Shown here: piece after piece, positions 44,302 through 47,188 of the stretch
Layout: each line of letters opens with the position of its first letter
Numbering within the stretch: the first letter of the stretch is position 1
Assembly (NCBI RefSeq): GCF_003751265.1
Contig: NZ_RJKN01000011.1
Location: forward strand, 1-64,000
Origin: Pseudokineococcus lusitanus
Lineage (GTDB): Bacteria > Actinomycetota > Actinomycetes > Actinomycetales > Quadrisphaeraceae
Length of the DNA stretch: 64,000 bases
Direction of reading: 5' to 3'
Position numbers and translations under genes: made by a program
The notes under the pieces: model-generated
Seen by the model: the letters and a program-made list of their open reading frames with translations, nothing else
Told to the model about the DNA's origin: nothing
Databases searched by the model: none

Positions 44302-45173
44302 GCGCCGCGACGACGGCGCTGCCGGGCCCCGAGGAGCTGGCGACGCTCCTCGACCTCGCCGAGCGCGTGGCCCGTGCCGCCGGCGAGCTGCTCGCCACCC
44401 AGCGGCCCGCGGACCTCGGCGTCCAGTCGACGAAGTCGAGCGCCACCGACGTCGTCACCGCCATGGACACCGCCTCCGAGGCGCTGCTGCTGCGCCTCCT
44501 GCGCGCGGAGCGCCCCGACGACGGCGTCCTCGGCGAGGAGGGCGGAGCCAGCGGCGGCACGAGCGGCGTCACGTGGGTCGTCGACCCGCTCGACGGCACG
44601 GTCAACTACTTCTACGGGCTGCCGACGTACGCCGTCAGCGTCGCCGCGGTGGTCGGCGACGGCCCGCCCGGCGAGCGACCGGACCCGCGGACGTGGACGG
44701 CGCTCGTCGGCTGCGTCCACGACCCCGTGAGCGGGCGCACGTGGACGGCGTCGCGCGGCGGCGGGGCCCGCCTCGACGGCGCCCCGCTGCGCGGCCCCGC
44801 CGAGGTCCCCCTCGACCGGGCGCTCGTCGGGACCGGCTTCGGCTACACCCCGCAGCGCCGGGCGGCGCAGGCCAGGGTGGTGGCGGACGTCCTGCCGCGG
44901 GTGCGGGACCTGCGCCGGGCCGGCGTCGCGTCCCTCGACCTCTGCGCCCTCGCCACGGGCTGGCTCGACGCCTACTACGAGCGGGGCCTGCAGCCCTGGG
45001 ACCACGCGGCCGGCGCGCTCGTCGCCGCCGAGGCCGGGGCCGTCGTCCGCGGGCTCGCGCCCGGCTCGGCGCCGTCCGAGGAGTTCTGCCTCGCGGCCGC
45101 CCCGGCCCTCGTCGCCGAGCTCGGCGACGTCCTCGTCGCCCTCGACCCGCTGGCCGAGGAGCCCGCCCCCTGA
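44298..45173 (+). CDS. Inositol monophosphatase family protein
   Basis: 291 aa from GTG 44298, overlapping cpfC. Metal-binding motifs are intact: [22 protein letters not shown], and [16 protein letters not shown]. Mg-dependent phosphatase of the FIG superfamily; candidates are inositol-1-phosphate or another sugar phosphate. Actinomycetes commonly have one beside ferrochelatase or the sepH locus. Closed by an 18-bp hairpin. Confidence 0.93.
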
Positions 45174-45191
45174 GGCACCGGGCCCGCACAT

Positions 45192-45230
45192 GACGAAGGC
45201 CCCCTCCCGGTGCGGGAGGGGGCCTTCGTC
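45192..45230. terminator. 18-bp hairpin between convergent genes
   Basis: GACGAAGGCCCCCTCCCG (45192-45209) pairs perfectly with 45213-45230 around a GTG loop. It lies between the IMPase stop and the stop of the small minus-strand gene at 45280, so it can serve both. Confidence 0.85.
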
Positions 45231-45279
45231 GTGCGGGACGGGCGGGGCCGACCGGGCCCGGCGGAGCCGGGCCGACGGG

Positions 45280-45465
45280 TCAGGCGCCGGCGCCCGACGC
45301 GGCGCCGGGGAGGGCCACGTCGTTGTCCTCGGCGAGGCGGGCCAGGGACTCCAGCTCGCCGGTGTGGACGGACACGAGGTACTCGTCGCCCTCGGCCCTC
45401 GCGCTGTCCAGGGCGCTGCGGGCCTCTCGGACCCTCTCGTGGACGTTGCTCGCGAACTCGCTCAT
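45280..45465 (-). CDS. Small helical hypothetical protein
   Basis: 61 aa from ATG 45465, GGAGG 5 nt upstream. Sequence is a charged helical hairpin: [19 protein letters not shown], a short turn, then [20 protein letters not shown]. Followed by a Gly/Ala tail. Unknown family, soluble; similar short proteins occur widely in actinomycetes. Confidence 0.75.
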
Positions 45466-46274
45466 GCGCACCTCCGGGCGGGCGGGCGCGGCAGGTGCCG
45501 CGCGGCCGTCGTCAGCTCGGCGGCAGCCGGCTGCGGGCCCGAGCGTAGACGGGCGCGGGGGCGCCCGGAGACGGACCGCACCACGGCCGCGGGCCCGGGG
45601 GAGGTGTCCGACCGCCCGACACCCGGCCGACACCGGCCCGACGCGCGGGCGTCACCGGGGCCCCGACGGGCCCGGCACGGACCTCCGGGGACGCCCCGTC
45701 GTTCCGGCCGGGGGCGGCCGCCCCGGCGCCGCCCGCCCCGTGCCGGGGGACGGCCGCGACGACCGCCCGGGGCGCACGCGGTCACGGCGCGGTCACGGGC
45801 CGGGCACGGCGCGGTCACGTGCGGCGGACGGCCCCCTGGCGTCCGCGGGGACCGGCGGGACGGCGCCCTCCGGGTGGTGCATGATGCGCCCTCGTCCAGG
45901 CCGTCCGGACGGCCGCCGCACGCCCGCGCCCGCGGGCATGACCGGCGCCCCCCGGACGTTCTGGCGTCCGAGGGCAGGGGTGCCCGACCGCGACGCCGTC
46001 CCGTGGGGACGCGCGCGGCACGCCACCCCGCCCGGCCCGCGCCGCAGGTGGTCGAGGACACGGCCCCGCACGGCCCGCCGTCGACCGCCGTGCTGCGGAC
46101 GCGCGGTGCGGGTGGTACTGAGCGTCACCGGGCAGCACCGTGCGCAGCGAGCGTGGGGAGCGGTGGCGCGGGGCCGGGCACGAGGCCCCCACGGCACCGG
46201 GCACGAGAGCAGCACCAGGGCGCCGCCAGGCGAGCAGCACGAGCGACACGAGGGACACGAGGGGAACCGGCGAC
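45466..46274. other. 809-bp intergenic region before DUF4193 gene
   Basis: The longest gap in the window. Open frames exist on both strands, but none has a ribosome site or recognisable protein. The most regular structure is the 11-bp direct-repeat cluster at 45778-45821. The last ~100 bp are rich in short CACGAG-type repeats and contain an AGGGGA-like ribosome site before ATG 46275. I cannot name a promoter. Confidence 0.55.
45778..45821. repeat. 4 x 11-bp direct repeats
   Basis: GCGGTCACG starts at 45778, 45789 and 45811. The slot at 45800 holds a 7/9 match (CCGGGCACG). Exact 11-bp spacing puts every copy on the same DNA face. Upstream of the DUF4193 gene by ~450 bp and of the small minus-strand gene by ~310 bp. 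Confidence 0.8.
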
Positions 46275-46577
46275 ATGGCCACCGACTACGACGCACCGCG
46301 CAAGACCGACGACGAGCTCAACGAGGACTCCATCGAGGAGCTCAAGGCCCGCCGCGCCGACCAGAGCTCCGGCAAGGTGGACGAGGACGAGACGGAGGCG
46401 GCCGAGGGCTTCGAGCTCCCCGGCGCCGACCTGTCGAACGAGGAGCTGTCGGTGCGGGTCCTCCCGCGCCAGGCGGACGAGTTCACCTGCTCGTCCTGCT
46501 TCCTCGTCCACCACCGCAGCCAGCTCTCGCCGGAGTCGACGGCGAGCCGGCTCGTCTGCACGGAGTGCGCGGCCTGA
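46275..46577 (+). CDS. DUF4193 family zinc-ribbon protein
   Basis: 100 aa from ATG 46275. Acidic first 60 residues ([20 protein letters not shown]), then a zinc ribbon with CSSC and CTEC about 30 residues apart ([15 protein letters not shown]). Matches DUF4193 (Rv2699c-like), nearly universal in actinomycetes and close to dut. Function unknown; the fold suggests association with RNA polymerase or nucleic acid (inference). Confidence 0.93.
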
Positions 46578-46591
46578 CGACGCCGCACGGG

Positions 46592-46633
46592 CGACGGCCC
46601 GGGCACCGGCACCCGCCGGCGCCCGGGCTGTCG
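46592..46633. terminator. Hairpin after DUF4193 gene
   Basis: CGACGGCCCGGGC (46592-46604) pairs with 46621-46633 with one G-U pair. Lies between convergent genes (DUF4193 and DUF3093). Confidence 0.65.
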
Positions 46634-46672
46634 TGCGTCCGGGGGAGGCGCGGCCCGGTGGAGGGGGTCCCG

Positions 46673-47188
46673 TCAGCCCCGCGGCTGCAGCGCGGCGGCC
46701 AGCCGGCGGGGGCGGTGGGTCGAGACGAGCCAGTAGGGCGCCGGGTCGTCGGGGTCGGTGACCTCCACGCGCACGACGCCGTCGGCCCAGCCCCGCATGA
46801 GCACGTGCGCGCGCGCGTCGAGCGCGGGCCCACGCTGCTGCCGGGCGTCCTCGCCGTCGTAGCCGGTGGCCGCGCCGAGCTCGGCCAACGGGATCCGCGC
46901 CCGCCCCGCCCGCAGCTCGCCGTCCGCCACCTCGACGACGGGGCTCCACGCGAGGAGGACCGCCGCGACGACCCCCGCGACGACGACCACCACGACGGCG
47001 ACGACGCCGACGCCGAGCGGTCCGGCGGCCAGGCCGGCGAGGGCGGCCAGCGCCGGCGCCGCCACCCAGCTGCCGGCCGAGGGGAGCACGCGCTCGCGGT
47101 AGGCGGCCGCCCCGGGGGCCGTGCCGCCGCCGGTCCCGCCGGTGCTGCCCGTGCCGTCCGTGCCGTCCGTGCTGCTGCCCCTCACCAC
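46673..47188 (-). CDS. DUF3093 family membrane protein
   Basis: 171 aa from GTG 47188 (the adjacent GTG is also possible). Gly/Thr-rich start, then [18 protein letters not shown], two hydrophobic helices, and a conserved soluble part: [56 protein letters not shown]. Matches DUF3093 (Rv2698-like). Unknown role; beside dut in mycobacteria as here. Confidence 0.9.

Follow-up and report, generated by a model that had tools for sequence, protein, structure and literature searches.

The closest described counterparts of the locus analysed here are operators built from direct repeats with an 11-bp period. The sites of PhoP from the Mycobacterium tuberculosis PhoPR system consist of 7-bp units with 4-bp spacers, the same layout as in the array described below (array B), and their box reads TCACAGC every 11 bp; unlike the array B unit, this core excludes a G before TCAC. 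The core of the Streptomyces PHO box, GTTCACC, also differs from the GGTCACG of array B. Sites of the response regulator MtrA have been reported in both Streptomyces and Mycobacterium at mtrA itself and at dnaA. The M. tuberculosis MtrA box is described as a direct repeat of c-G-T/A-n-A-C/T-c with four bases between the units, and the targets named in the same account include ripA and rpf (PMC6265350). For Streptomyces the MtrA box is given as GtnAcC-n5-GTnAcn, beside GTCACAgcg repeats in mycobacteria (PMC13189361), and overlapping pairs of S. coelicolor sites are described as able to share a half-site (PMC5650626). As these accounts present them, the MtrA sites of Mycobacterium and Streptomyces resemble array B in being GTnAC-core direct repeats with an 11-bp period that lie before envelope and other genes (PMC6265350, PMC13189361, PMC5650626), but they mostly comprise two loose half-sites where array B has four units, nearly all with a middle C. 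The S. venezuelae SPR half-sites are depicted as much looser, with T1 and C4 alone constant (PMC13189361). The PHO boxes of Streptomyces PhoP are likewise described as direct repeats of 11-nt units, of which four may follow one another (PMC7866108).

Array B lies between two divergent genes (Table 1) in the window, by which we mean the whole 64-kb stretch of DNA that was analysed. An earlier note on this DNA had claimed four 11-bp phased repeats at 45778-45821, and its coordinates, spacing and letters all proved correct: copies of GCGGTCACG stand at 45778, 45789 and 45811 and a degenerate one at 45800, all in an exact 11-bp period, the successive stretches being GCGGTCACGGC, GCGGTCACGGG, CCGGGCACGGC and GCGGTCACGTG. 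By its repetition alone the array is mildly unusual for so GC-rich a window. At a lag of 11, 25 of 33 positions are identical; shuffles of the gap reach this value in 1 of 2000 cases at that lag and, when any lag between 5 and 24 is allowed, in 48 of 2000, and dinucleotide shuffles of the whole 64 kb in 5 of 200. Neither the 9-mer of the array (4 found against 4.61 expected) nor the GGTCACG-type pair pattern with up to two mismatches (4 against 3.43) is enriched in the window. Scored as four 11-bp phased SGTCACS units, a motif picked after the array had been seen, array B reaches 27 of 28, a score attained in none of 1000 composition shuffles of the gap. Viewed without its genome context the array is a mild curiosity, and the weight of the finding comes from a genome-wide code rather than from the array's own repetition.

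Table 1. Coordinates in the window of the genes, arrays and promoter-like elements around array B
Feature	Position	Strand	Details
61-aa gene	45280..45465	-	divergent from the DUF4193 gene
Conserved box AGCGTAGACG	45542..45551	-	AGGGTAGACG in G003
Array A	45617..45656	+	four weak 11-bp phased units CGACACC, CGACACC, CGACGCG, CGTCACC
Array B	45778..45821	+	GGTCACG units at 45780, 45791, 45813; GGGCACG at 45802; period 11
Promoter-like box CATGATGCGCC of the DUF4193 gene	45880..45890	+	CACAATGCGCC in G002 and G003 (three-genome comparison)
Second promoter-like element GGGCAT-N18-GTTC	45934..45961	+	
DUF4193 gene, 100 aa	46275..46577	+	Pfam PF13834, E 5.5e-44

The search for such arrays across the genome that the earlier note had suggested was rewarding. 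In the source genome (3.84 Mb, 19 contigs), GGTCACG-N4-GGTCACG with up to two mismatches gave 139 matches against 30 for the reversed pattern, a control that differs in CpG make-up. With at most one mismatch there are 30 places, which form 26 distinct sites, and all 30 are intergenic by our own GC-frame gene caller, which was used here in place of an annotation and finds about 91% of the window to be coding. Pairs of exact GGTCAC words set 0 to 24 bases apart number 59 in this genome; 9 of them have period 11, while the 24 other periods average 2.08. Among 30 exact-pair loci, those at period 11 (5/5) and period 22 (1/1) are intergenic, as are 11 of the 24 at other periods. Three genus mates (G001-G003) carry 21, 14 and 19 places with at most one mismatch against 1, 2 and 2 for the control (54 against 5), and 29 of the 30 places fetched from them are intergenic. 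In a comparison that took in 30 of these 54 places, three sites of the source genome share orthologous neighbours with sites of a relative (L002/L092, L013/L202 and L018/L184). The exact-pair test is not clear-cut in the genus mates: among the 150 matches listed of 159 there are 12 at period 11, 12 each at 12, 14 and 18, and 17 at 15, the competing periods arising in part from coding or tandem repeats. G002 has tandem GGTCAC runs with periods of 13-15 bases at G002:C1:247852-247982 and G002:C6:202186-202251. The base in the middle of the unit is nearly always C across the sites, a feature for which the searches themselves selected.

The restriction of the code to intergenic DNA in four genomes argues against array B being a functionless accident of composition or slippage. 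This reading is improbable, even though 5 of the 200 window-wide shuffles equal the array's repetition. Slippage in particular is unlikely, since the spacers between the units of array B differ and the 26 separate sites share the code in spite of their different spacers.

We then considered the genes beside the sites. Among 20 neighbours scanned against Pfam, the matches include cutinase, LytR-CpsA-Psr, NlpC/P60, Lnt (apolipoprotein N-acyltransferase) and GDPD, as well as cytochrome oxidase subunit III, three solute-binding proteins, a transport permease and tRNA nucleotidyltransferase; six of the neighbours match no Pfam family. Of 41 site-adjacent genes, 17 encode a hydrophobic stretch at the N-terminus, against 7 of 51 genes of the window (Fisher p 0.0038), although the contrast is smaller with the other complete genes of the site loci, 3 of 15 of which have it. 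Exported or membrane products are over-represented beside the sites. The NlpC/P60 gene at one of these loci (L021), which has a leader some hundreds of bases long, comes after four phased units running from position 1501 of the locus, TGTCACG, GGTCACG, TGTCAAG and GGTCAAG; a known riboswitch in the leader was discounted, as an Rfam search of L021 at gathering scores returned three tRNAs only.

Taken together, the intergenic-only pattern, the spacing typical of OmpR-family boxes and the phased arrays in two genus mates (see below) support the view that array B is a predicted operator for an OmpR/PhoB-type response regulator, which is probably MtrA. Each GGTCACG unit would be a half-site for one DNA-binding domain, and the 11-bp repeat would line the domains up head to tail along the same side of the helix. 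Phosphorylated dimers would bind side by side, the four units taking two dimers, and the array would control the 61-aa gene, the DUF4193 gene or both through their promoters, and would belong to a wider set of sites before exported-protein and cell-envelope genes. That MtrA would be the binder, ahead of the other response regulators of this genome, is an inference. The proposal in the earlier note that such phased repeats bind a regulator cooperatively is thus well supported, whereas its alternative of an initiator-like protein finds no support: dnaA lies on contig C6 while ordinary genes surround the array on C11, and the roughly 1500 bp around the matched dnaA domain contain no match with up to two mismatches and only two with three. 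A chromosomal origin or plasmid iterons were rejected on the same ground, the array not being at the origin. Array B would be an ordinary kind of control site, but one that opens a set of similar sites in this bacterium. For an actinobacterial genus that is very GC-rich and little studied, it offers a readable code and a candidate envelope regulon of 26 sites, to which the uncharacterised DUF4193 protein and the small protein encoded divergently from it would belong.

The published MtrA boxes all have an 11-bp period, and hence both the letters and the spacing of array B fit MtrA. Three of its four units (GGTCACG) agree with the MtrA box as a direct repeat at this period, while the third reads GGGCACG. 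Judged by the Pfam names of the neighbours and by the 17/41 against 7/51 contrast, the 26 sites tend to precede cell-wall and exported-protein genes, as in the MtrA regulon. The source genome encodes an MtrA (L075), followed by a kinase gene, that is identical to the solved M. tuberculosis protein at 163 of 229 aligned positions and at 77 of the last 100. The main rival is a different OmpR-type regulator. The source genome has 15 Trans_reg_C matches, 13 of them over the Pfam cut-off, which leaves several candidates besides MtrA, and array B could on this account be the operator of, for example, one of the PhoP-like proteins L076 and L077. We regard this as rather unlikely, although the TCACGGC of the array is one base from the M. 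tuberculosis PhoP box. Few of the 26 sites have C as the second base after GGTCACG, which speaks against a PhoP-like box, and the leading GG of the unit suits the MtrA box. The envelope genes beside the sites, including NlpC/P60, also match the MtrA targets ripA and rpf as described for M. tuberculosis (PMC6265350).

A point in favour of a regulator other than MtrA is that, unlike in the other genera, neither mtrA nor dnaA of the source genome has a clean array: no GTNAC-N6-GTNAC lies near the mtrA promoter or in the dnaA region, the former having two GTCAC 21 bp apart, although sites at these genes are a trait of the regulon and do not define a single site. Autoregulation singles out no candidate, as none of the regulator genes examined has a strong array just upstream. 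It is highly improbable that array B is bound by the phosphate regulator PhoP/RegX3. A RegX3-like gene is present (L074), one GGTCACG site precedes a GDPD gene, and the 11-nt direct repeat units are shared with the PHO box as noted above. However, the pstS-like gene of the source genome has GTTCACC units rather than GGTCACG, in the form of GTTCACCCGGCGTTCACC, which we take to be the letters of the PhoP box (core GTTCACC). The two boxes differ, which indicates that this genome keeps its phosphate code apart from the GGTCACG code, and a PHO box was rejected for array B, which contains no GTTCACC-type unit.

The gap holding array B measures 809 bp between the start codons (45466-46274). The GC-frame caller finds no longer internal gap in the window and sizes this one at 803 bp, as it prefers a start two codons upstream. 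The earlier remark that no gene can be supported in it holds up: four open frames filling or entering it have no Pfam match at E 0.1, and a fifth matches only DUF4193, at its own end. A hidden gene was rejected on these grounds and because the gap is merely 494 bp in G003 and 532 bp in G002, which share the same divergent gene pair. Further out the window has genes for an inositol monophosphatase and a DUF3093 protein. The product of the 61-aa gene has no Pfam family. Across the order, 49 of 297 genomes have the gene, and its best matches come from 3 of 13 family genomes (the source genome, G002 and G003), at 83-84% identity. A known RNA was likewise discarded for 45150-46700, where an Rfam search with E up to 1 gave five matches, all under the gathering scores and all on a hairpin near 45190-45233. 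This strong hairpin (45189-45233; 21-nt arms, 95% complementary, 3-nt loop, no T run) separates the 61-aa gene from the inositol monophosphatase gene and is perhaps a terminator for both directions. Elsewhere in the window, at 676-879, there is a coding-like tandem array whose periods are 27, 54 and 81 bases.

The arrays are flanked on both sides by conserved promoter-like boxes. In the three-genome alignment one base of the AGCGTAGACG box varies and the rest are invariant; on the minus strand this box may contain a -10-like TACGCT for the 61-aa gene. Array B ends 60 bp before CATGAT, and boxes similar to CATGATGCGCC, the putative promoter of the DUF4193 gene, occur in other family genomes as well. 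A scan for the standard sigma-70 consensus finds no site, and hence the arrays may plausibly activate weak promoters. The second element occurs as GGGCA[TC]-N18-GTT[GC], with exactly 18 bases between its halves; besides the window, each of the 11 other family loci fetched (L032, L033 and L064-L072) has it upstream of DUF4193, and a looser version is found in 12 of the DUF4193 upstream stretches of 80 named actinobacteria. It looks like an ECF sigma factor promoter, and we liken it to those of sigma-R/sigma-H.

The earlier note had named lack of conservation in relatives as a ground for doubt, and this applies in part: array B is absent at its position in both comparable genus mates, G002 and G003, but the weaker array A is conserved, the phased GTCAC-type arrays of these two genomes aligning with it and not with array B. 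While the unconserved position of array B favours an accident, the phased arrays that two relatives carry in this gap argue against one. The best four-unit scores, out of 28, are 27 for array B, 24 for array A, 26 in G003 and 25 in G002, and the best window of each genome (array B in the source genome) was reached in none of 1000 composition shuffles; the gap of G002 also scores 24 at period 10. The distance from the array to the AGCGTAGACG box is 65 bp for array A, 66 bp in G002 and 76 bp for the best window of G003, where it becomes 65 bp if one more weak unit is counted. The arrays of G003 and G002 end 71 and 115 bp before CACAAT. Array B looks like a newer addition to the gap.

A bold and less probable reading is turnover: the genus would keep an ancestral phased array at a constant 65-66 bp from the box that resembles a promoter for the 61-aa gene, and in this species that array would have decayed to array A, while the stronger four-unit array B was gained 160 bp away, beside the DUF4193 promoter. 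If so, the regulator's control would have moved from one divergent gene towards the other. Should MtrA be confirmed, the genus would be suited to studying the gain and loss of half-sites between close species.

Beyond the genus, GTNAC-N6-GTNAC occurs in none of the DUF4193 upstream stretches of 80 named actinobacteria (80 of 571 relatives). A DUF4193 start was found near the 61-aa gene in 49 of 50 loci, the remaining one being left out, and up to 700 bp upstream of DUF4193 was scored where the start of the 61-aa gene could not be placed. Five of the 49 regions score at least 24: three belong to the genus, G098 has 28, and G042 reaches 24 in the opposite orientation. Under turnover the four-unit array of G098 would be an independent gain, while a perfect tandem array of this kind could also stem from slippage, which lends some ground to the accidental origin of array B. 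G098 belongs to another family, and its array (L231) consists of three copies of GGTCACCCGCT followed by GGTCACC, in the same divergent gap and about 180-220 bp upstream of DUF4193.
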